This document shows positions 1 to 25,536 of a stretch of 25,536 nt of DNA, piece after piece. The notes beneath the pieces are model-generated. The model saw only the letters and a list, made by a program, of their open reading frames with translations. It made no database searches and was not told where the DNA came from. Source of the DNA: a virus. The first letter of the stretch is position 1. Each line of letters begins with the position of its first letter. The position numbers and the translations under genes were made by a program. Where the stretch lies: the IMG/VR virus record IMGVR_UViG_3300034524_000148, positions 1 through 25,536 of that record. One strand, written 5' to 3'.

Positions 1-127
1 CTTCGGTAATATCCAGTTTCTGTAAACTGAAACTGGGCTTATTAAGTGATGTCTTTTTTAAGAAATATTGGCTATCTTATTTCCAATTTTCTTCTTTAGG
101 TACTTGACATATTACCGCAGGACTTTA
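1..127. repeat. Left terminal inverted repeat (127 bp)
   Basis: These 127 bases are the exact reverse complement of 25410-25536; identity stops at 128 on this side and at 25409 on the other. The repeat has its own inner symmetry: CGGTAATAT at 4-12 is mirrored by ATATTACCG at 109-117, and a smaller hairpin (CCAGTTT/AAACTGG) lies at 13-36. That resembles a short MITE-like element with its own inverted ends. No reading frame of note is seen in it. A length of exactly 127 also equals a common maximum de Bruijn k-mer, so the contig may simply stop inside a longer repeat. Confidence 0.95.
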
Positions 128-162
128 ATATCTTATTCTACCAGTTTAATATCTTATTCTAC
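124..162. repeat. Two tandem 18-bp direct repeats at the inner edge of the left terminal repeat
   Basis: The 18-mer TTTAATATCTTATTCTAC occurs at 124-141 and again at 145-162, separated by three bases (period 21). The first copy begins in the last four bases of the terminal repeat. The second contains the TAG stop of the leftward helicase gene (159-161). The duplication extends the 3' end of that gene and may be a scar of the junction between the repeat and the cassette. Confidence 0.85.
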
Positions 163-2054
163 AAGTTTTTTGTGAAATCCTCTAGTACTCTATTTAAAAA
201 CTCTTCAATTTTATCAAGTTTTTTCTCGGCAATATCCCAGTCGTTTGTTGTCCATTCTTCTCTTTTGGCACCAATCATATTTTTCAATGATGCATTTATA
301 TATATTGCAAGCATAGCAGCATTATTATTTTTTTGCTGTGCAATCCAAGAATATTTTCCGTTGAATAACATTGATTTTTTTAGCTCATCAGTTTCTTTAT
401 TTAAAGAATACTTACTAAGTAAAGTAGGTACAATATTATCTCTAATTCGGCTATCGAGACCAATTTTTTTTCTTTTAATAAATAGATCCGGTCTTTTTAT
501 TGGTGAGGCAAATCCTGTAGTTTGATTTAGTATTTTTCGGGCTTCTTTAAAGGAAATATTAAGAAGCTTTTGGATACCTTCTATTTTCTTCAATTCTTCT
601 TGTTCTTCTTTTTTTCGCTGTTCAATTAGTTTTGTATTTAAATAGGTGTCACCAACAAGAAATCCTTCGCCTTCTTCAAGGGCAGTTCCAATTGTTCTAT
701 CAATTATCCTTGCACCCGTTTCATCAACTTCATTATCATCATTAATATCAATGCTTTCTAGATATTTTATAGTTTCACTTTCTTGCTTCTCTTTTTTATA
801 ATAATCCCAAAGTTTATCTAAATTAAGTTCTTGGTGGCACACTATCTGAGCAATATTATCATCTGCTCTCTTAGCTTCATCATTTGGGATCGCTCGTAAA
901 ACTCTACCAATAAACTGTGCATATGGAAGAAGTGTTCTAAATGGCCTGAATATAGCGGCAATAGAAAGATAAGGATGGTCATATCCCTCACCAAGCATTG
1001 CGACATTTATTACAACATTCACTCTATGATTTTCTATATCCTGTAAGGCTTTTTCCTTATCACTTTTTTCCATTTCACTATGTACTATCGAACATTTATA
1101 ATTGTGTTTTTCATAAAGGTTTTTGATTTGAATAGCATGTGGGATACTACAAGCTACCGCAATTATTTTATGTGGTACCGGGTTGTTATCTTTAAGTTTA
1201 TTTTCAAGTATTTTAATACTTTCAAGTACAACCTTTTCAGAGCATTCCTCTGAATAAGCCACTGTTCTGCTTATCCAATCTTGATCTTTTATTCCTTCTT
1301 TAAGAAGTTCTTCGACAGAATATTTTTTAGTTTCATCGCCGTCAATTGTAAGATAAAGCTTTTCAGGTATATACTTGAAATTTTCCAATGATTTAACATA
1401 ACCATGAGCCATAGCAGCACTTAATTTATATTCATAAATTATCTCACCAATAATTTTTTTATCGTCAGACCTAAATGGCGTACCGGTTAACTTAATTACT
1501 TTTGCATTTGAGAAATATTGCAATGTTTCCAACCAAGTTAATGCTGTGGAATGGTGTGCCTCATCAACGATTATCATATCAAAAAAATCGTTTGAGACTC
1601 TGTTTATGAGGCTATTAGCAAGTCTTGATTGTAGCTTTTGTATATTAACTACTACAATATTTGCTAGTTGCAACACTTCGTCTTTTGTATCTCTACCTTC
1701 ATATTCTATTAAACATGGCAAATCACTCATGTTACAAAAAACTTTTTGGGTTAACCAAAAGTTTTCAGGGTATTCGGGATCTAGAGAACCTACGACTCCA
1801 TCTTTAATAACTAACTGGGGAGTAATTATTAATACTCTTCCTTTAGATATTCCATAGGGGAGAAGACCCATTAAACCTGTTTTCCCAACTCCAGTTGGTA
1901 GAATAATAATTGCATCTGTAGTATTACTTTTGTTCACAAAATGATCAAAGGCACGAGCATACGCTATTTTTTGGGGTATTCTTAAATTATCATTCTCATC
2001 AATATTTGGAATAGTTTTTAGAAAATAATTGGGATCATAATATAATTCAGGCAT
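159..2054 (-). CDS. SF2 DEAD/DEAH-box helicase, type III restriction/RadD-like
   Basis: The 631-aa protein carries a full superfamily 2 helicase core. Motif I is LPTGVGKT (about residues 52-59), motif II DEAH (164-167), motif III TGTPFR (190-195), motif V around NVAMLGEGYDHP (350-361) and motif VI QFIGRVLR (380-387). These ATPases move on or unwind nucleic acid. The C-terminal third (about 440-631) is charged, partly coiled-coil-like, and not recognised. No nuclease motif is visible, so a stand-alone restriction enzyme is unlikely. The ATG follows a strong AAAGGAGG site lying in the end of the preceding gene, with which it abuts, so the two are co-transcribed. Its place beside the immunity genes at the element edge suggests a moron, perhaps a phage-exclusion function; that is inference. 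Confidence 0.85.
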   Translation of the reverse strand: MPELYYDPNYFLKTIPNIDENDNLRIPQKIAYARAFDHFVNKSNTTDAIIILPTGVGKTGLMGLLPYGISKGRVLIITPQLVIKDGVVGSLDPEYPENFWLTQKVFCNMSDLPCLIEYEGRDTKDEVLQLANIVVVNIQKLQSRLANSLINRVSNDFFDMIIVDEAHHSTALTWLETLQYFSNAKVIKLTGTPFRSDDKKIIGEIIYEYKLSAAMAHGYVKSLENFKYIPEKLYLTIDGDETKKYSVEELLKEGIKDQDWISRTVAYSEECSEKVVLESIKILENKLKDNNPVPHKIIAVACSIPHAIQIKNLYEKHNYKCSIVHSEMEKSDKEKALQDIENHRVNVVINVAMLGEGYDHPYLSIAAIFRPFRTLLPYAQFIGRVLRAIPNDEAKRADDNIAQIVCHQELNLDKLWDYYKKEKQESETIKYLESIDINDDNEVDETGARIIDRTIGTALEEGEGFLVGDTYLNTKLIEQRKKEEQEELKKIEGIQKLLNISFKEARKILNQTTGFASPIKRPDLFIKRKKIGLDSRIRDNIVPTLLSKYSLNKETDELKKSMLFNGKYSWIAQQKNNNAAMLAIYINASLKNMIGAKREEWTTNDWDIAEKKLDKIEEFLNRVLEDFTKNL

Positions 2055-2282
2055 CTAGCATTCCTCCTTTTCTCGAAAATACAGTTCTAATGCTTCCTCT
2101 GGGAACCAATCCTCATTACTTTTAACTTTATCACTCGTACAGTGTATTGGGTGAAAATTACCTTTACGATAATCTACAGCTGTAACAGTACAAACCTCGC
2201 CTGTAGTCGGTGTGTACTTATCCGAATGTGGTAGAGTTTTTATGATAATGACTTTGTCCCCTTTTTTAAATAAATTAGACAT
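2055..2282 (-). CDS. Small hypothetical protein, SH3-like beta-barrel appearance
   Basis: This 75-aa protein begins with a GDKV motif followed by alternating hydrophobic strands and a WFPEE segment. The pattern is typical of small SH3-like/KOW-type barrels that bind nucleic acid or partner proteins. The start is well placed behind TAGGAGGAATT. Its TAG stop lies directly against the helicase start codon, and the helicase ribosome site is inside its last codons, so translation of the two is probably coupled. It may be an accessory subunit of the helicase; this rests only on gene order. No catalytic residues can be recognised. Confidence 0.65.
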   Translation of the reverse strand: MSNLFKKGDKVIIIKTLPHSDKYTPTTGEVCTVTAVDYRKGNFHPIHCTSDKVKSNEDWFPEEALELYFREKEEC

Positions 2283-2307
2283 TTATAATTCCTCCTATAT
2301 TAAATTT

Positions 2308-2341
2308 AAAAGCTTGCAAAGAAAAAATTCTGCAAGCTTTT
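2308..2341. terminator. Bidirectional hairpin terminator
   Basis: An 11-bp stem, AAAAGCTTGCA (2308-2318) with TGCAAGCTTTT (2331-2341), encloses a 12-base loop. T-runs of five bases on the plus strand and four on the minus strand follow the stem. It lies between the ImmA-type gene and the helicase cassette, so it would separate leftward lysogeny transcripts from the helicase operon. That operon would then need its own promoter between this hairpin and the 2282 start; I could not identify one convincingly. Confidence 0.7.
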
Positions 2342-2405
2342 TGTGTATTATTTTATAAATATTCAATTATTTATTAGGCCAGCAAATTTATTTACACTCA
2401 TGGAG

Positions 2406-2855
2406 CTATAGTAGCTCTTTTTTAATTCTCTTATCTGCCCATAATTCAACTATTTCATAGGGCATTTTAATCCTGGCAGCGAATTGCTGCAGAGTTTCCC
2501 CAGGCATTGGCTGTTCATCTCTAATTAAAAGTTCTGCCGCAAATAGATTAGCTTTAATTTCTTCCTTGGAGTATTGCATTAATGTATGTTCTACAAGAAA
2601 GAAATAACCACCCGGGGATGAAAGAAAGTAATGGCCGAGTTCATGTGCAAGCACTGTTCTTTGTAAATAATCCGGCAAGAATTGATTTATCCCAATATGA
2701 CTCTCTTCAGGGCTTTTTAAAAGCAATCCTTTGATATTGTTTTCAAAGGGAAATAAATCAACTTCAATTCCAAATATACTTGCAATTTCAAATGGACAAT
2801 TAGTATTATACTTAGCAACAAGTTTATCAACTAGTGTTCCGATTCTTAATAACAA
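2406..2855 (-). CDS. immA: ImmA/IrrE-family metallo-endopeptidase
   Basis: The protein has the zinc-protease motif HELGH preceded by hydrophobic residues (VLAHELGH, about residues 71-78 counted from the longer GTG start) and a downstream NLFAAELL segment supplying the third ligand Glu. This is the IrrE/ImmA layout. In ICEBs1 and related phages, ImmA cleaves the XRE repressor to induce the element. It lies just downstream of an XRE repressor in the same leftward operon, which fits that role. Start choice: an in-frame GTG at 2864 has no ribosome site, whereas GAGGTGA sits five bases before the TTG at 2855, so I prefer the TTG (149 aa). Symbol by family and context only. Confidence 0.85.
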   Translation of the reverse strand: MLLRIGTLVDKLVAKYNTNCPFEIASIFGIEVDLFPFENNIKGLLLKSPEESHIGINQFLPDYLQRTVLAHELGHYFLSSPGGYFFLVEHTLMQYSKEEIKANLFAAELLIRDEQPMPGETLQQFAARIKMPYEIVELWADKRIKKELL

Positions 2856-3003
2856 AGGAGTCACCTCGTTCTATAAAATGAATATTTAAAAAATTTACGA
2901 AGCTCCTATAAATTTTAAAAACTCCTTTGTCATCTGTTAAATGACCTTTAATTACCACACAAATTGAATTTATACAACCTATTGCTGGCCTAAAACTAAT
3001 CAT
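2827..3003 (-). CDS. Possible 58-aa coupled gene between repressor and protease
   Basis: An open frame begins with an ATG (3001-3003) that overlaps the end of the repressor gene by eight bases, and it runs 29 bases into the preferred ImmA-type start. This close overlap on both sides suggests translational coupling in a repressor-small gene-immA operon. The product is hydrophobic in its first third and basic overall. No family is recognised and the ribosome site is poor. The alternative is a 131-bp spacer without a gene. Confidence 0.28.
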   Translation of the reverse strand: MISFRPAIGCINSICVVIKGHLTDDKGVFKIYRSFVNFLNIHFIERGDSFVIKNRNTS

Positions 3004-3364
3004 TATTTTTCTTTTTTGAAGCAACGAATTGTATATATTTGATTATATCTTTCATATCCTCCTCATTAAATTCTTTTAAATTATAAAAGTCTATATTATA
3101 TTCTTTTAAAAGCTTGTCCAAAGGTGAACCAGGATTTTTAATTATTTCTTTCAGTGGGCGGGGGTCGTCTGTATTCCCTAGTAGGTATTCAACTGATGTA
3201 TTAAAATAATTGGCTATTTTAATTAAAGTAGTAATATCTGGTGTATTTATATTATTTTCATATTGAGAAATTGTTGATTTCCCGACATTCAGATATTTTC
3301 CAAGCTGTTCCTGGGTTAAATTTCTTTTATTTCTAAGATTTTTTATTCTTTCTCCAATATGCAC
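2996..3364 (-). CDS. XRE-family lysogeny repressor (cI-like)
   Basis: The N-terminus holds a classic HTH_3 domain (residues about 2-60, with LTQEQLGKYLNVGKSTISQY as helices 2-3). A short C-terminal region has no LexA-type Ser/Lys autoprotease motif. It therefore resembles ICEBs1 ImmR/phi105-type repressors that need an ImmA partner for inactivation, which is encoded next to it. An upstream TTG at 3391 is in frame but lies inside an operator; the GTG at 3364 has AGGGTGA five bases before it, giving 122 aa, and I use that. Three palindromes of the form GTTCA-N7-TGAAC in the divergent region are its likely binding sites, one of them between its own promoter and start codon (autoregulation). Confidence 0.9.
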   Translation of the reverse strand: MHIGERIKNLRNKRNLTQEQLGKYLNVGKSTISQYENNINTPDITTLIKIANYFNTSVEYLLGNTDDPRPLKEIIKNPGSPLDKLLKEYNIDFYNLKEFNEEDMKDIIKYIQFVASKKKNND

Positions 3365-3385
3365 GGCACTCACCCTTTTTAAATT

Positions 3386-3402
3386 GTTCAAAATATATGA
3401 AC
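3386..3402. promoter_or_regulatory. Operator O1, GTTCA-N7-TGAAC
   Basis: A 17-bp palindrome with five-base arms and a seven-base AT-rich centre. It lies between the likely -10 of the leftward repressor promoter and the repressor start, as expected for autoregulation. Matching sites occur at 3485-3501 and 3523-3539, and a half site (GTTCA) at 3454-3458. Confidence 0.75.
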
Positions 3403-3409
3403 TAACTAT

Positions 3410-3437
3410 ATTCTACCAAATATATTTATTCTTGTAA
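3410..3437 (-). promoter_or_regulatory. Leftward repressor promoter (PRM-like)
   Basis: On the minus strand, TTACAA (3432-3437) and TAGAAT (3410-3415) are separated by 16 bases. The -10 is good and the -35 weak. Transcription would start at about 3403, next to operator O1, and read the repressor and ImmA-type genes. Confidence 0.45.
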
Positions 3438-3477
3438 GTAACTAATAAGAAAAGTTCATAAAACATAAAAAATACTA

Positions 3478-3507
3478 TTGACAAGTTCATTTGAGGTGAA
3501 CTATAAT
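3478..3507 (+). promoter_or_regulatory. Rightward early promoter (PR-like), consensus sigma-A
   Basis: Both hexamers match consensus exactly: TTGACA at 3478-3483 and TATAAT at 3502-3507, 18 bases apart. Operator O2 occupies 17 of those 18 spacer bases, so a bound repressor would exclude RNA polymerase completely. The promoter drives the Cro-like gene and probably the early operon. Confidence 0.9.
3485..3501. promoter_or_regulatory. Operator O2, fills the PR spacer
   Basis: GTTCA and TGAAC arms with a seven-base centre, the same 17-bp format as O1 and O3. It sits exactly between the -35 and -10 hexamers of the rightward promoter. Confidence 0.85.
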
Positions 3508-3522
3508 AAAGGTAACATCCAA

Positions 3523-3539
3523 GTTCATGCAAAATGAAC
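3523..3539. promoter_or_regulatory. Operator O3, downstream of PR
   Basis: The best of the three sites, with six-base arms GTTCAT/ATGAAC. It lies about 38 bp downstream of O2, between the expected transcription start and the ribosome site of the Cro-like gene. An ATG inside the palindrome (3534) opens a slightly longer frame but is not the likely start. Confidence 0.8.
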
Positions 3540-3554
3540 AGAAAGGAGGCCATT

Positions 3555-3791
3555 ATGAAACTAGACAATTTAAAAATACTTCGTAAAAAAAAGGGAATAA
3601 CACAAGAAGAAATGGCTAAAAGGCTTGGTTATAAAGGCAAGAGTGGTTATTGCCAACTAGAAAACGGAACAGTAAAAATGACTTTAGAACAAGCCCATAA
3701 AATTGCTGAAATATTAGGTGAAGATCCTAAGAATATTTTTTTTGACAACAAAGTTCATGCTACATTAACAAAAAAGCAACAAGCCGTTTAA
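3555..3791 (+). CDS. XRE-family Cro-like regulator
   Basis: The product is a 78-aa single-domain helix-turn-helix protein (ITQEEMAKRLGYKGKSGYCQ over helices 2-3, then LEQAHKIAEIL and a DPKNIFF end). The size and layout are typical of the first rightward gene opposite a phage repressor. AAAGGAGG lies six bases before the ATG at 3555; an upstream in-frame ATG at 3534 falls inside operator O3 and lacks a ribosome site. It is read from the consensus promoter at 3478-3507 and probably competes for the same operators. Cro function is inferred from position; some homologues act as activators. Confidence 0.85.
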   Translation: MKLDNLKILRKKKGITQEEMAKRLGYKGKSGYCQLENGTVKMTLEQAHKIAEILGEDPKNIFFDNKVHATLTKKQQAV

Positions 3792-3810
3792 TATACTCGG
3801 AAAAAATAGT

Positions 3811-3986
3811 TGAAGAGAGGGGGTGTGGGGGAGTTGGATAAAAGGATCTGCCCTGAGTGTGGTAGAGAAAACCTTAAATGTGCTAACTTTAGCGAAAAAT
3901 GTGGTTCAAAAATCAGCAGTGAGTGCCCGTCATGTTGGAGAAAGAACGGGCAACCAAGCAGTTGCCCTGGTTTAAAATATCCTTAA
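3811..3986 (+). repeat. Direct repeat copy A (zinc-ribbon gene unit)
   Basis: About 175 bases closely matching 4990-5165, including the leader before the TTG start and the whole small gene, with scattered substitutions and no large gaps. The two copies flank the leftward gene at 4027-4869. Confidence 0.85.
3834..3986 (+). CDS. Small zinc-ribbon protein, degenerate copy A
   Basis: A 50-aa protein starts at a TTG behind a G-rich ribosome site. It is a near-duplicate of the gene at 5013-5165. The first knuckle is intact (CPEC, residues 6-9), but the second has lost one Cys (FSEKC here, FCEKC in copy B), and the C-terminal Cys of copy B is replaced by a LKYP end. Metal binding is therefore probably impaired, and this may be a decaying paralogue. 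Such small C4 proteins in phages often act as adaptors or inhibitors of host proteins, but no specific job can be given. Confidence 0.55.
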   Translation: MDKRICPECGRENLKCANFSEKCGSKISSECPSCWRKNGQPSSCPGLKYP

Positions 3987-4026
3987 AGTTCAGCGTCCTC
4001 ATCGATAACAATATCCTTTAATAAAG

Positions 4027-4869
4027 TTAAAACCATTTTATTTTAAAAAATTTTATATTAAATGTTTCTTTTAAGAACTCAGCAGCCTTTTTAAAAGCTA
4101 TTGTGTTCATGCTTCCACCACTTATGGAGTAACCATTTTTTAATCGCATTTCTCCAAAAAAACGCAAATCGCTTCCTGAATATCTATTCAATGATTTTAA
4201 AAATGAATTGTCTGTCGCTACTGAGTCAGCAAATTGGTAAAAAATTTCTTTATAAGGATGAGTATCTAAATTAGCATGTCTGTCATCAGAAAAATATCGA
4301 TAAATACAGAAAACAAAAAATGCAATCTTATCAGTACCGGTTAGATTATTAAAAACTAGATTATAAAGACTTTTTTTGCCGTGATACTTTGAGCTAATCA
4401 TATCTCGATTATCAGCAAATTCTAATAAACCCGGATTTGGATCATTATTATCATCGTCAACTTTTCTGCTTATTAAGCATGATACATCTTCAAATGAAGC
4501 ATTTTCAGGAATAGAAATACCTAGAGCCTTAGCATACTCAATTTGTCTATCAGTTGGTTCATCGAATATTACTTCTGTTTTATAAGGTGGTAATAGCCCA
4601 AGTTCAAGTACCTTAGTTTCAGCTATTTCTTTTGTTTTTGCATAAACTATTATTTTCTTTTTTCTATTAGTTTCTTTATTAATTCCGGTTATTTCATAAT
4701 GTTTTATTAATACTGGAGTGTATGAAATTATTTCTGTTTTTTGTTGAGGCTTTAGCTTATTAAATAAATTTTTATAAATTATTGCTTTATTTTTCAGTTT
4801 ATTAGGTAAATTTTTCAGTTTTTTAAGCCAATTTTCAAGCTTTCTAGGCCATGAAAGAAAATTATCCAT
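4027..4869 (-). CDS. Uncharacterised protein, leftward cargo gene between two zinc-ribbon copies
   Basis: The product is 280 aa. An N-terminal basic amphipathic, Lys/Leu-rich stretch (about 1-45) looks helical. A beta-rich segment follows, then a conserved-looking helical module with PTDRQIEYAKALGISIPEN, a pattern I associate with small modules in uncharacterised Gram-positive proteins. The C-terminal half is mixed alpha/beta. No catalytic motif is seen. The ATG at 4869 follows AAAGGAGC; 30 further in-frame codons upstream lack support. It opposes its neighbours, as a separately expressed moron would. Just after its stop, a shifted frame continues to a TAA at 3983-3985, so a homopolymer indel may have clipped its original acidic end. 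Confidence 0.7.
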   Translation of the reverse strand: MDNFLSWPRKLENWLKKLKNLPNKLKNKAIIYKNLFNKLKPQQKTEIISYTPVLIKHYEITGINKETNRKKKIIVYAKTKEIAETKVLELGLLPPYKTEVIFDEPTDRQIEYAKALGISIPENASFEDVSCLISRKVDDDNNDPNPGLLEFADNRDMISSKYHGKKSLYNLVFNNLTGTDKIAFFVFCIYRYFSDDRHANLDTHPYKEIFYQFADSVATDNSFLKSLNRYSGSDLRFFGEMRLKNGYSISGGSMNTIAFKKAAEFLKETFNIKFFKIKWF

Positions 4870-4989
4870 ATTTTTGCTCCTTTCAAAAATTAATTTAACC
4901 TTCTTTTTTCTACAAAAATATGGTAATTCCTTCTGTATTTTATAACCCAATAAAGCCAAGCCAGTTTAATCGTTATTAATAGTCAAATT

Positions 4990-5165
4990 GGAAGAGATGG
5001 GGTGAGGGAGAGTTGGATAAGAGGATCTGCCCTGAGTGTGGTAGAGAAAACCTTGAACATGCTAACTTTTGCGAAAAATGTGGTTCAAAAATTAGTAGTG
5101 AATGCCCGTCATGTTGGAAAAAGAATGGGCAACCAAGCAGTTGCCCGGGTAAAAAGTGTAACTAA
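4990..5165 (+). repeat. Direct repeat copy B (zinc-ribbon gene unit)
   Basis: Second copy of the unit at 3811-3986. The homology begins about 23 bases before the TTG start and runs through the gene; downstream similarity is weak at the DNA level. Confidence 0.85.
5013..5165 (+). CDS. Small zinc-ribbon protein, intact copy B
   Basis: A 50-aa protein starting at TTG, with a GGGGTG ribosome site eight to nine bases upstream, as in copy A. It keeps all the Cys pairs: CPEC (6-9), CEKC (20-23), CPSC (31-34) and two near the end, consistent with one or two zinc knuckles. It is likely the functional paralogue of the degenerate gene at 3834-3986. A longer ORF in another frame over this region is a shadow. 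The role is unknown; the zinc site suggests a protein- or nucleic-acid-binding adaptor. Confidence 0.7.
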   Translation: MDKRICPECGRENLEHANFCEKCGSKISSECPSCWKKNGQPSSCPGKKCN

Positions 5166-5254: not shown

Positions 5255-5278
5255 TTAAAAAAAGGGGTGTATGTCCAA

Positions 5279-5458: not shown

Positions 5459-5492
5459 CAATATTTCCTTGGAAATAAAAGGAAGTGGAATA

Positions 5493-5744: not shown

Positions 5745-5807
5745 CAACAATTTCTAGCTTTTTCTTTTAAATCTTTAGTGGACAAGGGTTGTAAAGGAGG
5801 TTAAAAA

Positions 5808-13676: not shown

Positions 13677-14264
13677 ATGAATACTGTTGAGCCTATAAGG
13701 GATAAAAAATTGGTCAACGATATTGCCGAATATTTAAGAATAAGAAGTGAGCGTAATTTTGTTATGTTTGTATTCGGTATATATTCTGGATTGAGGATAT
13801 CAGATATTTTAGAACAAAGAGTAAGAGATGTTAGAGACGCTAATGGTAAAATCAAAAGTCATATTTATATACGTGAGAAAAAAACAGGTAAAGAAAAAAG
13901 GTTTGTTATTAATGATGAACTTAAAGATGTATTACAAGAATATGTCCAAGATAAACCTGGCTATGAATATCTTTTTAAGTCAAGAAAAGGTTTAAATAAA
14001 CCAATAACTCGTGAATATGCATATCAAATACTTCGTGATGCAGCTCAAGCCTTTGGACTTGAAAGCATAGGGACTCATACAATGAGAAAAACATTTGGCT
14101 ATCATCTGTACCAGGAAACAAAAGATGCTGTATCATTACAAAAGATATTCAACCATAGCCATGTTTCAATAACTTTATTATATATTGGTGTTACTCAGGA
14201 TATGAAAGATAATATGGTTAAAAAGTTAAGTTTTAAATTAAATACAAGGAAAAAACGGAAATAA
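13677..14264 (+). CDS. Tyrosine recombinase, catalytic domain only
   Basis: 195 aa. All catalytic residues of the lambda-Int/Xer family are in place: Arg40 (SGLRISDIL), a beta-hairpin Lys near 68-72, His134-x-x-Arg137 (THTMRKTFG), His160 (FNHSH) and Tyr169 (LLYIGV). The N-terminal core-binding (SAM-like) and arm-binding domains of phage integrases are missing, so it resembles the short FimB/FimE type of invertase or the short recombinases often found before the terminase in Clostridia phages. Its place just downstream of the late promoter argues against a role in initial integration. Dimer resolution, inversion or late gene control are possible. Confidence 0.85.
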   Translation: MNTVEPIRDKKLVNDIAEYLRIRSERNFVMFVFGIYSGLRISDILEQRVRDVRDANGKIKSHIYIREKKTGKEKRFVINDELKDVLQEYVQDKPGYEYLFKSRKGLNKPITREYAYQILRDAAQAFGLESIGTHTMRKTFGYHLYQETKDAVSLQKIFNHSHVSITLLYIGVTQDMKDNMVKKLSFKLNTRKKRK

Positions 14265-14540: not shown

Positions 14541-15107
14541 ATGAAAAAACCAAAGGTTGAGGATATAAGTTCAGTTGTTGTGCCCGCCAAAGTATTATCT
14601 GATGTTATTGGTGTTTCAGAGAGAAGAATTAGACAGCTGGCTGAAGAAGGAATTTTAGTTAAAACTTCAAGGGGTAGATATAGTTTTGGTGAGAGTGTTA
14701 AAAACTATATTGTTTATTTAAAAACAACCTCTGACTTAGAAACTACTAATATAATAAAGCTCGATCTGGATGAAGAAAGAGCGAAGCATGAAAGACTAAA
14801 GAGAGAAAAAACTCAATTGCAATTAAAAGTTATGAAAGCCGAGTTGCATTATTCAGGAGATGTTGAGGTTGTAATGAATGATATGTTATCAAATTTTAGA
14901 GCAAAAATTATTGGTTTACCAGCAAAGGTTGCACCAATATTAATTTCTAAAAACAAAGTATCTGATATACAGGAAATTTTACAAAAACAATGTTACGAAG
15001 TATTGGAAGAGTTATCAAATTATGACCCTAAATTGTTTTATAACGATAAGTGCATAGACTTTGAGGAAGATTTAGAAGAAGGTGGAGGCGGTGAAGAAGG
15101 AACATAA
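14541..15107 (+). CDS. terS: Terminase small subunit, Nu1-like
   Basis: 188 aa. The N-terminus has a winged-helix/MerR-like HTH (VPAKVLSDVIGVSERRIRQL, EEGILVKTSRGRYSF), as in lambda Nu1, used to recognise the packaging site. The middle helix LDEERAKHERLKREKTQLQL is a dimerisation coiled coil, and the C-terminus is acidic (FEEDLEEGGGGEE), the likely contact with the large subunit. Its end overlaps the large subunit gene by 26 bases. GAGGTG precedes the ATG. Confidence 0.88.
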   Translation: MKKPKVEDISSVVVPAKVLSDVIGVSERRIRQLAEEGILVKTSRGRYSFGESVKNYIVYLKTTSDLETTNIIKLDLDEERAKHERLKREKTQLQLKVMKAELHYSGDVEVVMNDMLSNFRAKIIGLPAKVAPILISKNKVSDIQEILQKQCYEVLEELSNYDPKLFYNDKCIDFEEDLEEGGGGEEGT

Positions 15108-16950
15108 AATAAAATTAAAAACCCTTGAATTGTTCAGAGATATAGCAAAAATAATGGCCCCTCCCCCAGATTTGACTGTTTCACAGTGGGCTGATAAATA
15201 TAGAGTACTATCCCCTGAGTCGTCTTCGGAATCAGGGCGATGGAATACAGACCGAGCTCCATATCAGCGTGAGATTATGGATGCAGCTAGTGATCCGGAA
15301 GTTGATACTGTTGTAATTATGAGTAGTGCCCAGGTAGGGAAGACAGAAATTATCAATAATATAATTGGCTATCATATTGATTATGACCCTTGTCCAATGT
15401 TGCTTGTTATGCCTACGGATACACTAGCAAAAACTTGGTCAAAAAAACGTCTATCACCAATGATTAGAGATACTCCTGCTTTACACGATAAAATAAAAGA
15501 TGCAAAAAGCAGGGATAGCGATAATACCATATTAGAAAAGGGTTTCCCGGGTGGTTACATTGCAATAGTAGGAGCCAATTCCCCTGTAGGCCTTTCATCG
15601 AGACCGATTAGGATTGTTTTAGCGGATGAAGTTGATAGGTTTCCTCCATCTGCTGGTAAAGAAGGAGATCCACTGAGTCTTGCTGTAAAAAGGACAGCAA
15701 CTTATTGGAATAAAAAGAAAATATTCGTGTCAACTCCAACAGAAGTAGGAATTTCAAGGATAGAGAAGGAATTTAGTACAAGCTCGCAAGAAGAATGGAA
15801 TTTGCCATGTCCTTTATGTGGAAAATATCAACCTATTGATTGGGACCGCATCAAATTTCAAAAGATAGATGAAAAAGGAACAGACGTTACAGATGTAACA
15901 ATGGAATGCAAATTTTGTAAAGAAAATTTTAATGAATTTGAATGGAAAGAAATGAGTAGTCAAGGGAAGTGGATCCCCAAAAAAGAAGGAGTAAAGGATA
16001 AAAGAGGCTTTCATTTAAATGCTTTTGTTTCTCCTTGGGAACGTTGGGAAGAAATAATTAAAAATTTCCTTGAAGCCAAAAGGAATGGAAAAGAAACTTT
16101 AAAAACTTGGGTAAACACATACCTTGGACAACCATGGGAAGATGATGAAGGAGAAACCTTAGAACATGAAGTCTTAATTAAAAGAAGAGAAGCCTATAAT
16201 TGTCAAGTACCAGATGGTGTCCTTGTTTTAACAGCCGGTGTAGACGTCCAAGATGATCGTATAGAAATAGAAGTAGTAGGATGGGGAAAAGATAAAGAAT
16301 CATGGGGGATAGAATATAAAAAAATTTATGGCAACTTAGAACAACCGGAAATATGGAAAGAACTAGATGAGTATTTATCTAGTTCTTTTTATTTTAATGA
16401 CGGCAGCATCATTAATATTTCCTGTACCTGTATTGATACAGGGGGCCATTATACTAACGAAACTTATAAATTTATAAAGCCAAGAGAAATTAGAAGGATA
16501 TTTGGAATAAAAGGTTATGCCGGCTTTGATAAACCGGTGATTGGTAAACCAAGTAAAAATAACAGAGAGAAAATTAATCTATTTCCCATAGGGGTAGATA
16601 TTTTAAAGGATAGAGTATATGCGAGATTAAAGGAAGATTTTGAGGGTCCAGGGTATTCACATTTTCCAATTGAGAGCGAAAAGGGATATGATGAGGAATA
16701 TTTTAAAAGTCTATGCTCTGAAAAGAAAGTAACAAAATATTCTAAAGGTGTTGCATCTTTTCGATGGATTAAAAAAAGAAAAAGAAATGAAGGTTTAGAC
16801 TTAAGAAATTATGCAACAGCCGCATTGGAAATTTTGAATCCAAAATTTGAGATCCTTGAAAAGATGAAGAAAAATGGCATGTTAAATAATCAAAACAAAA
16901 AAACATCTAATGTGAAAAAGAGGAGAGTAATATCAAAAGGAGTCCAGTAG
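15082..16950 (+). CDS. terL: Terminase large subunit, lambda GpA family
   Basis: 622 aa, full length for GpA. The N-terminal ATPase has WADKYRVLSPESS, a Walker A-like SSAQVGKT (about 81-88) and Walker B IVLADEVD (about 178-185). A treble-clef-like four-Cys site lies at CPLCGKYQ...CKFC. The C-terminal nuclease starts at GVDVQDDRIEIEVVGWGKD and continues with CIDTGGHYTN and GVDILKDRVYARLK, including acidic metal ligands. It cuts concatemers and pumps DNA into the prohead. The start is ambiguous between GTG 15082 and GTG 15091. GpA family membership suggests cos-type packaging. Confidence 0.96.
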   Translation: MEAVKKEHKIKLKTLELFRDIAKIMAPPPDLTVSQWADKYRVLSPESSSESGRWNTDRAPYQREIMDAASDPEVDTVVIMSSAQVGKTEIINNIIGYHIDYDPCPMLLVMPTDTLAKTWSKKRLSPMIRDTPALHDKIKDAKSRDSDNTILEKGFPGGYIAIVGANSPVGLSSRPIRIVLADEVDRFPPSAGKEGDPLSLAVKRTATYWNKKKIFVSTPTEVGISRIEKEFSTSSQEEWNLPCPLCGKYQPIDWDRIKFQKIDEKGTDVTDVTMECKFCKENFNEFEWKEMSSQGKWIPKKEGVKDKRGFHLNAFVSPWERWEEIIKNFLEAKRNGKETLKTWVNTYLGQPWEDDEGETLEHEVLIKRREAYNCQVPDGVLVLTAGVDVQDDRIEIEVVGWGKDKESWGIEYKKIYGNLEQPEIWKELDEYLSSSFYFNDGSIINISCTCIDTGGHYTNETYKFIKPREIRRIFGIKGYAGFDKPVIGKPSKNNREKINLFPIGVDILKDRVYARLKEDFEGPGYSHFPIESEKGYDEEYFKSLCSEKKVTKYSKGVASFRWIKKRKRNEGLDLRNYATAALEILNPKFEILEKMKKNGMLNNQNKKTSNVKKRRVISKGVQ

Positions 16951-17252: not shown

Positions 17253-18803
17253 ATGAATATTGTCGATAAGGTGGTTAGTTTTATTTCACCTCAAATTGCT
17301 GTAAAGAGAATAGTGGCCAGAAAACAATTGATAATTTTAAACAGCGGATATAGCTATCATGGAGCCAGTCGAACTAAAAAATCTTTACTAGGATGGATAA
17401 GTAGCGGCGGATCGACAAAAGAGGATATCGATGATAATTTAGATCTTTTGCGGCAACGTTCTAGGGATCTATATATGGGCACGCCACTAGCTACAGGTGC
17501 TTTAAAAACAACTAGAACTAACGTAGTGGGAAGCGGCTTAAAACTTAACGCCCAGATTGATTATGAGTTTATAGGCTTAACAGCTGAAGAAGCGGACGCC
17601 TGGGAAACAAAAGTAGAAAGAGAATTTTCTCTTTGGGCCGACTCTGTTCATTGTGACGCTCAAAGAATGAATAATTTTTATGAATTACAGCAATTAGCCT
17701 TTTTAGCCTGGCTTATGAGTGGAGAATGTTTTGTATTACTCCCACTAATAAAAAGGCCCAATATGCCTTATGACTTACGGGTGTACGTTATTGAAGCCGA
17801 TAGGGTATGTACGCCGACGGATAAAAAATATTCTGATGATATTATTAACGGGGTTGAAGTTGGAAAATATGGTGAGGTAATGGCCTATTATATTGCACAA
17901 AAACACCCATTAGCAGTAAACATTGGTAAGCAAGAATGGGTGAGAGTGCCTGCTTTTGGAAAGGAAACCGGTAGACCTAATATTCTACATCTTATGGAAG
18001 CTGAAAGGCCGGAACAACGAAGGGGTGTCCCTATACTTGCTCCTGTTATAGAAGCATTAAAACAACTGGGCAGATATACCGAGGCAGAATTGATGGCGGC
18101 AGTAGTGTCAGGCATGTATACGGTTTTTATAAAAAGCGAAACCCCGAACGTAGATGTTCCTTTTGGAGAAGTAATTCCTGAAGAGGCGAGGATAGATGAT
18201 ATTGACGAAAACTCATACGAGCTAGGAAATGGAGCAATTATAGCACTAGGTGATAATGAGGATATTAAAGAAGCTAATCCTGGAAGGCCAAATACGGCAT
18301 TTGATGGTTTTGTCACTTCTGTATGCCGGCAAATTGGGGCCGCATTAGAAATACCTTATGAATTATTACTTAAAAACTTTACAGCTTCTTACTCAGCCAG
18401 TCGTGCTGCACTATTAGAAGCTTGGAAAATGTTTAAAATGAGAAGAGCATGGTTAGCCACAGATTTTTGCCAACCAATATATGAAGAGTGGCTTTCTGAA
18501 GCCGTTGCCAAGGGTAGAATTTATGCCCCTGGCTTTTTTTCTGATCCTATGGTAAGAAAAGCATATTGTGGAGCTGAGTGGAACGGGCCTTCTCAGGGAC
18601 AGATTGACCCCTTAAAAGAAGTTACTGCAGCAGCCAAAAGAGTAGAAGAAGGCTTTAGTACCAGAACCCGGGAAACTCAGGAACTTACCGGCGGAGATTT
18701 CTTTAAGAATTTAAGCTTAAGGGTAAGGGAGGAGAAATTACGCAGAGAAGGAGGATTGGCTTCAAACTTAATTTTAGAAAGACAAGGGGGTGAAAATGAG
18801 TGA
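17253..18803 (+). CDS. Portal protein, lambda gpB family
   Basis: 516 aa. It has the features of lambda-type portals: RSRDLYMGTPLATGALKTTR, TNVVGSGLKLNAQID, a central MSGECFVLLPL strand and the stretch FTASYSASRAALLEAWKMFK late in the protein. Twelve copies form the ring through which DNA enters the head and to which the tail binds. AGGAGGTG lies before the ATG. Its stop overlaps the next start by three bases, so expression with the protease is coupled. Confidence 0.95.
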   Translation: MNIVDKVVSFISPQIAVKRIVARKQLIILNSGYSYHGASRTKKSLLGWISSGGSTKEDIDDNLDLLRQRSRDLYMGTPLATGALKTTRTNVVGSGLKLNAQIDYEFIGLTAEEADAWETKVEREFSLWADSVHCDAQRMNNFYELQQLAFLAWLMSGECFVLLPLIKRPNMPYDLRVYVIEADRVCTPTDKKYSDDIINGVEVGKYGEVMAYYIAQKHPLAVNIGKQEWVRVPAFGKETGRPNILHLMEAERPEQRRGVPILAPVIEALKQLGRYTEAELMAAVVSGMYTVFIKSETPNVDVPFGEVIPEEARIDDIDENSYELGNGAIIALGDNEDIKEANPGRPNTAFDGFVTSVCRQIGAALEIPYELLLKNFTASYSASRAALLEAWKMFKMRRAWLATDFCQPIYEEWLSEAVAKGRIYAPGFFSDPMVRKAYCGAEWNGPSQGQIDPLKEVTAAAKRVEEGFSTRTRETQELTGGDFFKNLSLRVREEKLRREGGLASNLILERQGGENE

Positions 18804-20208: not shown

Positions 20209-20221
20209 GGAGGAAAAATAC

Positions 20222-21247: not shown

Positions 21248-21260
21248 GGAGGAGATTTAG

Positions 21261-21452: not shown

Positions 21453-21454
21453 TC

Positions 21455-21778
21455 ATGCTAAGGTTGCGTGATTTTTTTAATAGTGATCTGGAAACCTTCT
21501 TTAATAATAATGAATTTGCAGAAATTCATAACATTGATGGTTTAGATGTTCCGGCTATTGTAGATAGCGATATTCTTAAAATTCGTAGTAATAATAAGTC
21601 CGAGCAGTATGATGGAGTGTATTCCGGCGTAGTCGCAGTCTTTGTTAAGGCTAGCGACTTGCCGGAAAGGCCTGTGTTTGGGCAGCATATTAGGTTGGAT
21701 GGGAAGCTCTATTTAGTGAAAGAATGCAATGAAGATATGGGAGTTTTAGAAATAATCTTAGAGGCGAATGAGTCATGA
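21455..21778 (+). CDS. Head-tail joining protein (FII-like)
   Basis: 107 aa. The N-terminal helix (LRDFFNSDLETFFNNNEFAE), a strand series (LDVPAIVDSDIL, GVVAVFVKASDLP, GQHIRLDGKLYLVKE) and the end MGVLEIILEANE fit the small beta-barrel head-tail connectors of the gpFII group. These close the head and attach the tail. The stop overlaps the next gene by four bases (ATGA). Confidence 0.7.
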   Translation: MLRLRDFFNSDLETFFNNNEFAEIHNIDGLDVPAIVDSDILKIRSNNKSEQYDGVYSGVVAVFVKASDLPERPVFGQHIRLDGKLYLVKECNEDMGVLEIILEANES

Positions 21779-22341
21779 TTACCCTTGATGCCGAACATAT
21801 TGAAAGAGCAGAGTTACTTTTGAAAAATATTCCAGGCGGTATAGATAAGGCAGTTGTGAGAGCAATAAACCGTTCTGTAGATAGGGCACAAACTGCAACA
21901 GTTAAAAAAGTAAGAGATAGATATTATATTAAAGCTGGTGATGTTAGAAAGACTATAAAGGTTAAAAAGGCCAATTATAGTGACCAGATAGCAATTATTC
22001 GCTCTACAGGTTCACCAGTTGCTTTATCTAAATTTAAAATTACTCCTTCAAAACCGCCTCAAAAGAAGACTAAAAAGCCTGTTAGAGCACGGGTTGTAAA
22101 AGGAGAGGGTGGGGAACTTAAAAGAAGGGCCTTTGTTGCAAAGATGAAATCAGGGCATATTGGGGTTTTTAAGAGAGCTGGAAAATCAAGGTACCCGATA
22201 AATCAGTTTTATGGTCCTTCAGTCCCACAAATGTTAGGGCATAAATCAGTAGTGACATATGTAGAGGAAAGAGCTAATGAACAGTTAGTAAGCCGCTTGG
22301 ACCATGAGATTGAGCGATTATTGCGAGGTGCAGGTAGATGA
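21775..22341 (+). CDS. Minor tail protein Z-like (tail completion)
   Basis: 188 aa, basic. A helical start (IERAELLLKNIPGGIDKAVV RAINRSVDRA region, about 9-38), then RYYIKAGDVRKTIKV and GSPVALSKFKI, and a C-terminal GPSVPQMLGH, match the prophage minor tail protein Z family. Lambda gpZ connects the tail to the head. It overlaps its neighbours on both sides (four bases each), showing tight coupling. Confidence 0.8.
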   Translation: MITLDAEHIERAELLLKNIPGGIDKAVVRAINRSVDRAQTATVKKVRDRYYIKAGDVRKTIKVKKANYSDQIAIIRSTGSPVALSKFKITPSKPPQKKTKKPVRARVVKGEGGELKRRAFVAKMKSGHIGVFKRAGKSRYPINQFYGPSVPQMLGHKSVVTYVEERANEQLVSRLDHEIERLLRGAGR

Positions 22342-22793
22342 GTACAGTATTATTGGTGGATGAACTTAAGGAATTTGTAAATACGGTAGTTAAAGAGTAT
22401 TGTTTAGAAACAAATAAACCGGGAGTAGAAAAAGAACCTCAGGTAGTAACCGGCTATCTCCCACCCAAAAAACTCACAGAAATCCCTGATTATCCATTTG
22501 TAATAGTTCGTTTGGCTAAAGGTATAGATAATCAAGAGGGAGCAATGGTGACTGTAAAGATTATCGTCGGTACCTACTCGGAAGATGCTCAAAATGGTTG
22601 GCGTGATGTTGCCAATATTATTCAACGCATTTGGACTGAGTTATATAAGCGGAGAATAATTGCTAACAAATTCCGAGTTGAATACCCGATGGAATTTGAA
22701 ATACCGGAAGAACAGCCTTATCCTGAGTGGATAGGTATCATGACTATTACTTGGACTGTTCTTCATCCGATAGAGGAGGTTGTGTATGAGTAA
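22338..22793 (+). CDS. Tail terminator-like protein
   Basis: 151 aa, alpha/beta. It has YPFVIVRLAKGIDNQEGAMV, VKIIVGTYSEDAQNGWRDVA and a C-terminal IMTITWTVLHPIEE strand. Size, fold pattern and position (after gpZ-like, before sheath) fit the tail terminator group, which caps the growing tube and sets its end. Assignment is mainly by position and general pattern. Confidence 0.7.
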   Translation: MSTVLLVDELKEFVNTVVKEYCLETNKPGVEKEPQVVTGYLPPKKLTEIPDYPFVIVRLAKGIDNQEGAMVTVKIIVGTYSEDAQNGWRDVANIIQRIWTELYKRRIIANKFRVEYPMEFEIPEEQPYPEWIGIMTITWTVLHPIEEVVYE

Positions 22794-23064
22794 GACGAAG
22801 AAAGCTGCACCAAAACAAAAACCGGAGCAACTTATTTATTGTGGACCGAATTTCCCTGGTGGGGCTATACAGAGTTTTACAGCCTTTAAAGGTGGTTTGC
22901 CAGGGTATGTTAATGATTTGGCCCAAAAGTGTCCAGCTATTAAGAAACTATGTGTTCCAATTACAAATTTTAACAAAACCAGACAAGCAATAAATATATC
23001 AGGAACACCTGAAAATAGATTTTATAAGCAAATCTTAGATTTTGTTAATAAAGGTGGTGTTTAA
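22786..23064 (+). CDS. Hypothetical protein before the tail sheath
   Basis: 92 aa. It starts with a Lys/Pro-rich stretch (SKTKKAAPKQKPEQL), then YCGPNFPGGAIQSFTAFKGG and a helical end. GAGGAGG before the ATG at 22786 lies inside the end of the previous gene. Small proteins in this slot occur in many contractile-tail modules (the Mu-like position before the sheath), and a role in sheath or connector assembly is possible. No named family is certain. Confidence 0.65.
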   Translation: MSKTKKAAPKQKPEQLIYCGPNFPGGAIQSFTAFKGGLPGYVNDLAQKCPAIKKLCVPITNFNKTRQAINISGTPENRFYKQILDFVNKGGV

Positions 23065-23068
23065 GTAA

Positions 23069-24526
23069 ATGACATATAAACATGGAGTATATGTTTCTGA
23101 GATACCTACTTCGGTGCTGCCACCAGTAAGAACTACTGCCGGGCTCCCGGTAGTATTCGGGACAGCACCTGTTAATTTAACAGATGATGAGGGAGCGGAA
23201 AAGGTTAATAAACCTATTTTGTGCTACACATATAAAGAAGCTGTAGATGCACTAGGTTACTCGGACGATTGGAACAGTTACACACTTTGCGAGTTTATAA
23301 AGTCGCATTTTAGCTTATTTGCCGTGGCTCCGGTGGTACTTGTTAACGTATTGGATCCGGCTATTCATAAGGCTAGCGTGAGTGCCGAATCCTTGACATT
23401 GGATACCAATGACCAGGCACCGTTGGACAATAAGGGTGTTTTACTTTCTACGGTTGTAGTCAAGTCTTCCGATGGCCTAACTACTCATGTAAAGGATACT
23501 GATTATACCGTAGATTCTGATGACGATGGAAATGCTGTTATTACCAGGTTAGATTCTGGGGCCATTGCCGAAGGAGCAGAATTGCAGGTTGATTATGACC
23601 ATCTGGATCCATCAGCTGTAGTTTCAGATGATATTATTGGCGGTGTAGATGCTAGTACTGGAGAGTATACAGGGTTAGAGCTTCTAAATCAGGTTTTTCC
23701 AAAGTTTCGGTTAGTACCGGGCATGGTATTGGCTCCCGGATGGTCTCATGATCCGACAGTAGCAGCTGTAATGGTAGCAAAGGCAGAAAACATAAATGGT
23801 CACTTTAAGTGCACTGCATTAACCGATGTTCCCACAGATACTGTCACTAAATATACTGATGTAGCTTCCTGGAAAACCAATAACAACTACACTTCTGAAA
23901 GGCAGGCAGTTTGTTGGCCAAAGGTTGCACTAGGCGATAAACAATACCATTTATCTACACAATTAGCCGGAGTAATTTGCAAAAATGATGCTGAATATGA
24001 TGATGTTCCATTTGCTAGTCCTAGTAACAAATCTCTCCAAGCCGATAGTACGGTTCTAAAAGATGGTACTGAAGTTTCCTTAGGACCTGATCAAGGATCT
24101 TATTTAAACGGCCAGGGCATTATAACAGGTTTAAACTTTATTGGAGGATGGAAAGCCTGGGGGAACCGCACTGGTGCTTACCCTGCAGTAACCGACCCCA
24201 AAGATGCATTTTTACCCACCAGGCGTATGTTTGACTGGATAGCAAATCAGCTGATTTTAATGTTCTGGCAGAAGGTGGACTATCCTGTTTCTAGGCGTAT
24301 GGTAGAAACAGTTATTGATTCGGCTAATATTTGGCTAAATGGATTAACAGCGAGAGAATTTATTCTTGGAGGGCGGGTAGAATTTTTACTGGAGGAGAAC
24401 CCAGATACTGACTTGGCTGACGGTATTGTTCGTTTTCACGTTTATGTGACCCCTCCTGCACCAGCCAAAGAAATTGATTTTATGATTGAATATGACCCAA
24501 AATATCTTGAAGGAATATTTGGATAA
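23069..24526 (+). CDS. Contractile tail sheath protein
   Basis: 485 aa. The beginning TYKHGVYVSEIPTSVLPPVR and the end with the long C-terminal strand-helix domain (ILGGRVEFLLEENPDTDLAD, FHVYVTPPAPAKEIDFMIEY) are typical of Mu gpL/P2 FI-type sheath proteins. The central inserted domain (about 100-210) is variable. Rings of this protein wrap the tube and contract to drive it through the cell envelope. This fixes the virion as a myovirus-type, despite the lambda-like head module. Confidence 0.93.
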   Translation: MTYKHGVYVSEIPTSVLPPVRTTAGLPVVFGTAPVNLTDDEGAEKVNKPILCYTYKEAVDALGYSDDWNSYTLCEFIKSHFSLFAVAPVVLVNVLDPAIHKASVSAESLTLDTNDQAPLDNKGVLLSTVVVKSSDGLTTHVKDTDYTVDSDDDGNAVITRLDSGAIAEGAELQVDYDHLDPSAVVSDDIIGGVDASTGEYTGLELLNQVFPKFRLVPGMVLAPGWSHDPTVAAVMVAKAENINGHFKCTALTDVPTDTVTKYTDVASWKTNNNYTSERQAVCWPKVALGDKQYHLSTQLAGVICKNDAEYDDVPFASPSNKSLQADSTVLKDGTEVSLGPDQGSYLNGQGIITGLNFIGGWKAWGNRTGAYPAVTDPKDAFLPTRRMFDWIANQLILMFWQKVDYPVSRRMVETVIDSANIWLNGLTAREFILGGRVEFLLEENPDTDLADGIVRFHVYVTPPAPAKEIDFMIEYDPKYLEGIFG

Positions 24527-24539
24527 GGAGGGATGAGGG

Positions 24540-25061
24540 ATGAACCAGGTACCGGAAAAATTAATTAACTTTAGGGTATATGAGGACGGCAATGACTTAC
24601 TCGGTATTGCTGATGTCCAATTGCCGAGTATAGAGGCTATGACTGAAACAGTTAAAGGGGCAGGTATTGCCGGTGAAGTAGATAGCCCAGTTCTGGGTCA
24701 TTTCGGCAGCATGACTCTTACATTAAATTGGAGAACTGTCACTAAACCAACAGTACATTTAGCTCAACAGCGAGCGCATAATTTAGATTTAAGAGGAGCG
24801 ATTCAAGCGTATAATGCTGGTTTAGGAGAGTATAAAGTAACACCTTTAAAAGTTAATGTTAGATGTGTTCCCAAAAAAACTGATTTAGGTAAACTCGATG
24901 TAGGTGCAACTTCTGATGCTTCTAATGAATTTGAAGTATCTTATATTAAAGTGACTTTAGATGGTAAAACGATTGTTGAAATTGATAAGTTTAATTATAT
25001 ATGTGTAATAGATGGGAAGGATTATCTTAGAGATGTTCGTACTGCTTTAGGATTAAGTTAA
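24540..25061 (+). CDS. Tail tube protein
   Basis: 173 aa. The pattern is that of P2 FII/Mu gpM-type tube proteins: MNQVPEKLINFRVYEDGNDL, IADVQLPSIEAMTETVKGAG, SPVLGHFGSMTLTLNWRTV and FNYICVIDGKDYLRDVRTAL. It forms the inner tube under the sheath. GGAGG precedes the ATG. In related phages tail assembly chaperone and tape-measure genes follow directly; here a terminator follows instead. Confidence 0.93.
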   Translation: MNQVPEKLINFRVYEDGNDLLGIADVQLPSIEAMTETVKGAGIAGEVDSPVLGHFGSMTLTLNWRTVTKPTVHLAQQRAHNLDLRGAIQAYNAGLGEYKVTPLKVNVRCVPKKTDLGKLDVGATSDASNEFEVSYIKVTLDGKTIVEIDKFNYICVIDGKDYLRDVRTALGLS

Positions 25062-25068
25062 TAAAAAC

Positions 25069-25090
25069 AGGGCCCGTAGTTTGGGCCCTT
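25069..25090. terminator. Bidirectional terminator after the tail tube gene
   Basis: AGGGCCC (25069-25075) pairs with GGGCCCT (25083-25089) around GTAGTTT. On the minus strand the stem is followed by TGTTTTTATT, a good T-run for the leftward membrane gene ending at 25094. On the plus strand TTAATTT follows, which is weaker. It would end the structural operon here. Confidence 0.8.
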
Positions 25091-25093
25091 AAT

Positions 25094-25375
25094 TTAATCA
25101 TCACTAAAGAATTTACTACCCAACCATAAACCGGTTAGGAAGGAAAATATTGATGTTTTTCTTTGATTAGTATTTATATTTTCAATATCACCAAATCCCA
25201 AGAGGGGACCACATTTAATTAAAAATATAAGTAAACCGGTAAAGAAACCAATCCAATATCCTATAGGACCTAGTATAAGTTCGCCGAAAAAACCAACAAG
25301 TAGGCCAAAAATAGAACCGAAGGCGAGTATTATACCCAAAACGATTAACTTTATTAGTAACTCAAAAATAACCAT
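25094..25375 (-). CDS. Small membrane protein of unknown function
   Basis: 93 aa, very hydrophobic. Two to three membrane segments are visible: about 4-30 (IFELLIKLIVLGIILAFGSI region), 32-52, and possibly the end. Gly-rich helices suggest packing in the membrane. The C-terminal third is polar (DIENINTNQRKTS). AAGGGGGAATTAGTA precedes the ATG. An extended -10 (TGGTATAAT on the minus strand, 25400-25408) lies just inside the right terminal repeat, so it is a self-contained leftward unit, with promoter and terminator, like a moron. Superinfection exclusion is a possibility, not shown. Confidence 0.6.
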   Translation of the reverse strand: MVIFELLIKLIVLGIILAFGSIFGLLVGFFGELILGPIGYWIGFFTGLLIFLIKCGPLLGFGDIENINTNQRKTSIFSFLTGLWLGSKFFSDD

Positions 25376-25399
25376 TACTAATTCCCCCTTGTTAGTAAA

Positions 25400-25408
25400 A
25401 TTATACCA
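25400..25408 (-). promoter_or_regulatory. Extended -10 promoter of the leftward membrane gene
   Basis: On the minus strand TGGTATAAT is an extended -10 element 25 bases before the start codon. A TTGACA lies at 25428-25433 inside the terminal repeat, but the 22-base spacing is too long for a standard sigma-A promoter. Confidence 0.5.
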
Positions 25409-25409
25409 C

Positions 25410-25536
25410 TAAAGTCCTGCGGTAATATGTCAAGTACCTAAAGAAGAAAATTGGAAATAAGATAGCCAATATTTCTTAAAAAAGACATCACTTAATAAGC
25501 CCAGTTTCAGTTTACAGAAACTGGATATTACCGAAG
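25410..25536. repeat. Right terminal inverted repeat (127 bp)
   Basis: Exact reverse complement of 1-127. Divergence begins at 25409, where this side reads toward the membrane gene promoter and the left side reads into the duplicated 18-mer near the helicase stop. See the left copy for inner symmetry and the assembly caveat. Confidence 0.95.

Follow-up and report, generated by a model that had tools for sequence, protein, structure and literature searches.

A viral contig with a perfect 127-nucleotide terminal inverted repeat is very probably a phage segment cut inside two inverted IS110-family insertion sequences

We analysed the viral record IMGVR_UViG_3300034524_000148, a stretch of 25,536 nucleotides (the window) that is bounded by a 127-nt inverted repeat. 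It is a contig assembled from a metagenome and belongs to a temperate-type phage, probably a phage of Bacillota. The contig was very probably cut inside two inverted copies of an insertion sequence (IS) of the IS110 family, with the right ends of both copies facing inward, an assembler k of 127, and the right copy at the ribosome-binding site of the gene for the tail assembly chaperone. The length of the repeat is best explained as the k-mer size of the assembler.

Bases 1–127 are the exact reverse complement of bases 25410–25536 and the two ends diverge from base 128 on, which bears out the perfect inverted end repeat reported in a preliminary description of this DNA. A perfect match of 127 nt by chance is ruled out. 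Because the window is the entire IMG/VR record, the repeats are real contig ends. The 15-mers of the terminal repeat occur nowhere else within the window, and the end pair ranks first among its repeats; the remaining inverted pairs are 20–34 nt long and 71–86% complementary.

Comparison with bacterial genomes showed the terminal repeat to be, by homology, the right end of an IS110-family element that is foreign to the phage. Seven of nine related phage records had no match to the repeat and the other two matched over just 18–19 nt. Homologues were found in 13 of 398 sampled bacterial genomes of the phylum (E up to 1e-5; at most two candidates scored per genome, nine genomes rescored fully), the best showing 91% identity, and in 5 of 26 genomes of the class (E up to 1e-3), three of these with short matches of 23–60 nt only. 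Both copies in genome G150 (L037 and L049) are 91% identical to the repeat. At L037, on a 3.72-Mb contig, an intact transposase gene of the IS110 family (410 aa) ends 20 nt before the homologue, and its product reaches 252.7 bits with NF033542 (IS110 family RNA-guided transposase; cut-off 140); at L049 the transposase frame is broken. A further homologue, L026, lies equally far behind a degenerate IS110 transposase, pieces of which match PF01548 and PF02371. The recombinase gene with DEDD and Transposase_20 domains was seen adjoining the repeat in the relatives L037 and L026 only, the window itself offering no view of it; the transposase gene of the left copy is expected, from these relatives, 20 nt further to the left, outside the window. 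Full IS copies within single genomes measure 1.8–1.9 kb, and the relatives have no boundary at repeat base 1, the IS running on for ~1.7–1.8 kb more. The preliminary description had proposed, on technical grounds, that each contig end retains the last k-mer of a longer inverted repeat; this proposal is supported, and the longer repeat can now be named as an IS110-family element of ~1.8–1.9 kb.

Four draft contigs from other bacteria (L025, L030, L038 and L040) likewise break off within this IS, no more than ~80 nt from the repeat homologue, and this is the same type of assembly break as that of the window. The broken G150 copy (L059/L049) lies between a gene that we take to be acpS-like and the start of the following gene. 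An Alicyclobacillus dauci plasmid with many IS110 copies contained one full-length close relative at the chosen cut-off; on the same plasmid, cas12b is annotated as two overlapping coding sequences (L069, 31998–35362). DNA searches gave no match for the repeat among plasmid records and none for bases 1–25000 among phage records. The exact hairpin and right-end motifs had no match in a set of viral contigs from which the window's own record is possibly absent, and Rfam at gathering scores returned nothing in the window. The repeat was absent from all three genomes of the class of the Carboxydothermus genome (E up to 1e-3), and the genomes behind the phage-related loci L012, L013 and L014 yielded just 15–32 nt matches with E values of 0.01 to 0.9.

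The inner boundary of the element was placed by alignment. In 13 of 21 loci, repeat base 124 is the last one homologous to L037, whereas the homology extends 3–18 nt further in six and ends earlier in two; therefore only bases 1–124 are assigned to the IS110 right end, and bases 125–127 (TTA) to flanking DNA that agrees on both sides. The features of the two IS ends, with the evidence for each, are as follows.

Bases 1–124, plus strand: right (3′ non-coding) end of the left IS110-family copy, cut by the contig end (91% identity to the G150 copies; L037 boundary).
Bases 13–36, plus strand: hairpin in the right end, with 8-bp perfect arms at 13–20 and 29–36 (folding).
Bases 104–109, plus strand: TTGACA, the −35 half of a predicted circle-junction promoter (right end joined to a related left end).
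Bases 123–124, plus strand: putative core dinucleotide CT of the left junction (right- and left-end alignments).
Bases 125–127, plus strand: TTA flank, agreeing with the other end by chance or target preference and lengthening the exact repeat to 127 (right-end flank alignment).
Bases 25410–25412, minus strand: flank common to both ends, TAA on the plus strand and TTA on the minus strand (repeat comparison, right-end flank alignment).
Bases 25413–25414, minus strand: putative core of the right junction, AG on the plus strand and CT on the minus strand (end alignments, L094 junction).
Bases 25413–25536, minus strand: right end of the right IS110-family copy, cut by the contig end (repeat comparison, flank alignment, L094 junction).

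The architecture of the relatives is that of the IS110 group. Both ends carry the core CT and there are no terminal inverted repeats, the right end being ...GGACT and the left end CT-CGTATA; in most full alignments the right end closes ...TTGACATATTACCGCAGGACT, and the left end opens CT-CGTATA(A/G)TAT (damaged in L058). Across seven copies, the left end spans ~410–529 nt to the open frame and the right end 144–148 nt past the stop codon. A longer left non-coding end characterises the IS110 group according to the available text of two reports (PMC11187229, PMC11208160), and the IS1111 group, which the structured right end had suggested, was rejected on this ground. The fold that includes the hairpin is more stable than 200 of 200 shuffled sequences (z of −4.5 as DNA and −3.9 as RNA), and repeat bases 4–12 pair with bases 109–117. 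This good folding had also raised the possibility of a small dispersed palindrome (a miniature inverted-repeat transposable element), which was rejected because the homologues extend outward into a transposase gene. When the right end of the window was joined over one CT core to the left end of L059, the single pair examined, TTGACA and TATAAT came to lie 17 nt apart; promoter formation at the circle junction is described as an IS110 feature in the available text of one of the same reports (PMC11208160). A 21-nt tandem duplication (bases 124–165) begins exactly at the left IS junction.

The other end of the element led to a target rule. A pattern built on the left end had 22 matches in 11 of the 398 genomes and its reversed control none; adding the plasmid copies L068 and L070 gave 24 rows, of which 22 distinct flanks were left after removal of one duplicate and one 2-nt flank. 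All 22 start with AGG, and in 21 of them a start codon lies 13 or 14 nt from the core, the exception being L079. As a control on the same flanks, a start codon was found at offset 13 or 14 for 493 of 4810 AG and 126 of 1158 AGG positions. Under a stricter rule, which required a Shine-Dalgarno match of at least 4 nt and also an open frame that has 30 codons or reaches the contig end, 18 of 23 qualified against 776 of 10808 control positions. These counts therefore place the IS at Shine-Dalgarno sites, antisense to a gene whose reading direction leads away from the IS left end, and across the aligned flanks of the relatives they show this target rule. Among three viral left-end matches, L094 and L095 obey the rule and L096 fails it; within the window, the rule is examinable at the right copy only, through L094.

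A left-end motif preceding TGTAGC matched its own target at a mean of 7.2 of 9 positions (range 5–9), a value equalled by 12 of 5040 guide permutations; this comparison covered ten copies with seven guides, 14 of the 24 copies having been excluded for want of the motif, and the CT was fixed by selection. One example, from Alicyclobacillus dauci, matches at 9/9. The motif appears to resemble its own target above permuted ones, which is suggestive only. We lean towards the view that, in several Bacillota, one branch of the RNA-guided IS110 elements has its guide set to the Shine-Dalgarno motif, so that it would land antisense before almost any gene while keeping the ribosome-binding site; in this phage such a landing would split the late operon, and guide and target would drift together between subfamilies.

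Gene order at the right end of the window shows that the phage is incomplete. In the related locus L003, the tail tube gene is followed by a small minus-strand open reading frame (ORF), the tail chaperone, the tape measure and baseplate genes, and the window stops past the small ORF, short of the expected chaperone start. Searches with the L003 proteins found chaperone and tape measure in 10 of 10 relative loci (eight distinct sequences including the query source L003; L010 left out) and found neither in the window, so the tail operon is truncated at its right end. We had predicted beforehand that some contig would start in the IS left end and continue into the chaperone gene. The left-end search found just such a contig, IMGVR_UViG_3300034524_000152 (L094; 7,484 bases), which was also returned by a tape-measure search as one of 56 loci. 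Its first 124 nt are IS left end (90.5% identity to L059 over 126 nt), followed by the core AG, a chaperone start codon at offset 13, and then the tape measure and baseplate-type genes. When the window flank and L094 were joined over one core, the last 29 nt before the start codon aligned without gaps (23 of 29 identical to L003, 21 of 29 to L012). The tail tube of the window is nearest to L003, L012 and L099, and the chaperone and tape measure of L094 are nearest to L099, L003 or L012. Judged by these sequence comparisons, L094 appears to be the other side of the right insertion in the same phage.

These observations can be combined into one scheme. Two copies of one IS110-family IS would flank the phage segment in inverted orientation, right ends inward, and a short-read assembler with k = 127 would have become stuck at the repeat, so that each contig end retains a single k-mer, made up of 124 nt of IS and 3 nt of flank on which the two sides agree. 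The right copy would lie antisense at the ribosome-binding site of the chaperone gene, with the remaining tail operon on the separate contig IMGVR_UViG_3300034524_000152, whose first bases are IS left end. The left copy would similarly lie at the start of the gene that follows the leftward helicase gene, a gene predicted to begin just beyond that copy; this left insertion, and what lies left of the window, we infer. Antisense entry at ribosome-binding sites in two divergent operons, the late one rightward and that of the helicase leftward, would yield inverted copies, and recombination is therefore not needed. Both copies are presumed to be full length and in one genome; a single cell is the simplest reading, and a mixture of strains is possible.

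The value of k would have been 127. In a toy de Bruijn graph with a lone inverted pair, the terminal inverted repeat equalled k in 40 of 40 runs. The available text of the CheckV paper describes direct terminal repeats whose lengths match k-mer sizes (55, 77 and 99, for instance); of the inverted-repeat contigs for which completeness was estimated, it rates only 33.2% as high quality, and it advises caution for inverted repeats (PMC8116208). Its k-sized repeats are direct and arise from circular templates, whereas that of the window is inverted and would arise from two IS copies.

Several points weigh against this scheme. When a third repeat copy was added to the toy graph, 127 was obtained in only 19 of 40 runs, and a four-run version gave k in two of four runs, with 0 in the run at k = 127; the argument from k therefore depends on the graph. 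The metagenome and assembler behind the window are stated in no record, and that Joint Genome Institute assemblies use k up to 127 is general background on which a literature search found no paper. The transposase lies outside the window and neither IS copy is visible whole. The spacer restored by joining L094 has just 29 identities to each of L003 and L012 over its last 43 nt and needs a 12-nt gap further upstream. L094 and the window have no 20-mer in common, as expected for opposite IS ends, so their link rests on spacer fit and IS identity instead of overlap. The flank of L094 begins AGA, in contrast to AGG in the 22 distinct flanks. The nearest relatives of terminase and portal are L005/L013, and those of the tube and most L094 proteins are L003, L012 or L099; this difference fits mosaicism but does not establish a single phage. 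No left-end partner contig was recognised among the three viral left-end matches, of which L095 and L096 were inspected for the left-end flank only. Finally, the terminase of the window was found in none of the 11 genomes searched that carry a repeat homologue; it was present in two of two searched genomes that had yielded phage relatives.

Other arrangements could also place inverted repeats at both ends. The 25 kb might flip by recombination between the IS copies, whether homologous, by the IS110 enzyme or by the 195-aa recombinase (13677–14264). The presence of two inverted copies, if correctly deduced, and of a short tyrosine recombinase gene would suit such inversion, and IS110 enzymes are described as able, under laboratory conditions, to invert DNA that lies between reprogrammed sites (PMC11208160, available text). 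However, the repeat is an IS end rather than a site specialised for inversion, and the pairing of the right flank with L094 is that of a simple insertion, which makes an invertible segment improbable. We give as little weight to a chimeric assembly with one real IS copy and a false join at one end: the flanks differ directly past the IS end, as in independent insertions, and the right flank fits L094, although the left end has no such support.

Still less likely is a composite transposon, in which two IS copies would carry the phage segment between them. IS copies on both sides are what the scheme itself calls for. IS110 recombination, however, joins a right–left end pair, and inward-facing right ends leave two left ends on the outside; moreover, the interior has ordinary phage gene order and the nine related records searched, distant relatives only, lack such an IS end. 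The preliminary description had entertained a transposon-like unit, and nothing in two inward-facing IS110 right ends points to the 25 kb moving as one. It had also considered a linear element with terminal repeats. The perfect terminal inverted repeat is what the true termini of a protein-primed linear genome would display, but the phage encodes a GpA terminase and a lambda-type portal, its gene set is incomplete, with the tail operon cut before a chaperone present in all 10 relative loci and apparently continued on another contig, and the repeat is an IS110 right end with no boundary at base 1 in relatives. L094, if from the same phage, speaks against linear termini as well, and we consider this interpretation extremely unlikely. 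An assembly break inside two inverted IS110-family copies accordingly remains our preferred explanation.

Between the IS ends, a leftward group encodes the helicase, an IrrE-like protease and a repressor, and the rightward block ends with terminase, portal, sheath and tail tube. The mapped features of the interior are listed below.

Bases 128–158, no strand: phage spacer from the left IS junction to the 3′ end of the helicase gene (ORF map).
Bases 159–2054, minus strand: ResIII/DEAD-type helicase of the leftward operon (Pfam, PHROGs).
Bases 15082–16950, plus strand: terminase large subunit, GpA type (Pfam, PHROGs).
Bases 17253–18803, plus strand: portal protein, lambda type (Pfam, PHROGs).
Bases 23069–24526, plus strand: tail sheath (PHROG 23; no Pfam match at E 0.01).
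Bases 24540–25061, plus strand: tail tube, last late gene before the break (PF04985; PHROG 55, labelled head closure).
Bases 25094–25375, minus strand: 93-aa small membrane-type ORF between the tail tube and the chaperone position (no Pfam or PHROG match).
Bases 25376–25412, no strand: phage spacer up to the right IS junction, which with L094 rebuilds the chaperone upstream region (L094 join).

Relatives of the sheath protein occur on eight viral contigs and three genome contigs, the latter including Carboxydothermus islandicus (L013) and a Thermosediminibacterales metagenome-assembled genome (L012); L005 is the same DNA as L013, and L006 lies wholly inside the sequence of L007. In L012 and L013 the same late gene order surrounds sheath, tube and chaperone, the sheath being 80 and 74% and the tube 87 and 76% identical, respectively, to those of the window; unlike in the window, their chaperone spacer is unbroken and free of IS. 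The 93-aa ORF, which lies within the tail operon but on the other strand, has relatives in six loci (four distinct sequences) at 36–47% identity. Elsewhere in the window, a 165-nt direct repeat, 90% identical between its copies at 3812–3976 and 4991–5155, flanks a minus-strand 310-aa gene (4027–4959; PHROG 20233, unknown function), as if the gene were a cassette. The gene for the short 195-aa tyrosine recombinase lies directly ahead of the terminase genes.

For the interpretation of viral contigs, these results mean that a perfect terminal inverted repeat of k-mer length can represent two IS copies, in which case a call of completeness is unwarranted. They also offer a route of recovery, in which the other IS end is predicted and contigs starting there are searched; here this yielded a contig that carries the tail genes lacking from the window. 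At the family level, IS110 elements landing at ribosome-binding sites form a natural data set for guide–target matching.

In comparison with known systems, the copies in relatives resemble the IS110 group (IS621 type) in their DEDD transposase, longer left non-coding end, CT core and circle-junction promoter, group features as given in the available text of PMC11208160 and PMC11187229. They differ in a left end of ~410–529 nt before the open frame and in the Shine-Dalgarno target that their sequences suggest. A literature search on Shine-Dalgarno or ribosome-binding-site targeting by IS110 or IS900 brought up one relevant item, which concerns IS900 and was available as a title. IS900 of Mycobacterium avium subsp. 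paratuberculosis, which we take to be an IS110-family element, reportedly has translation initiation signals as its target, to go by that title (Doran et al. 1997). Compared by description and not by sequence, the two systems would thus be alike in targeting translation initiation and differ in residing in other host phyla.

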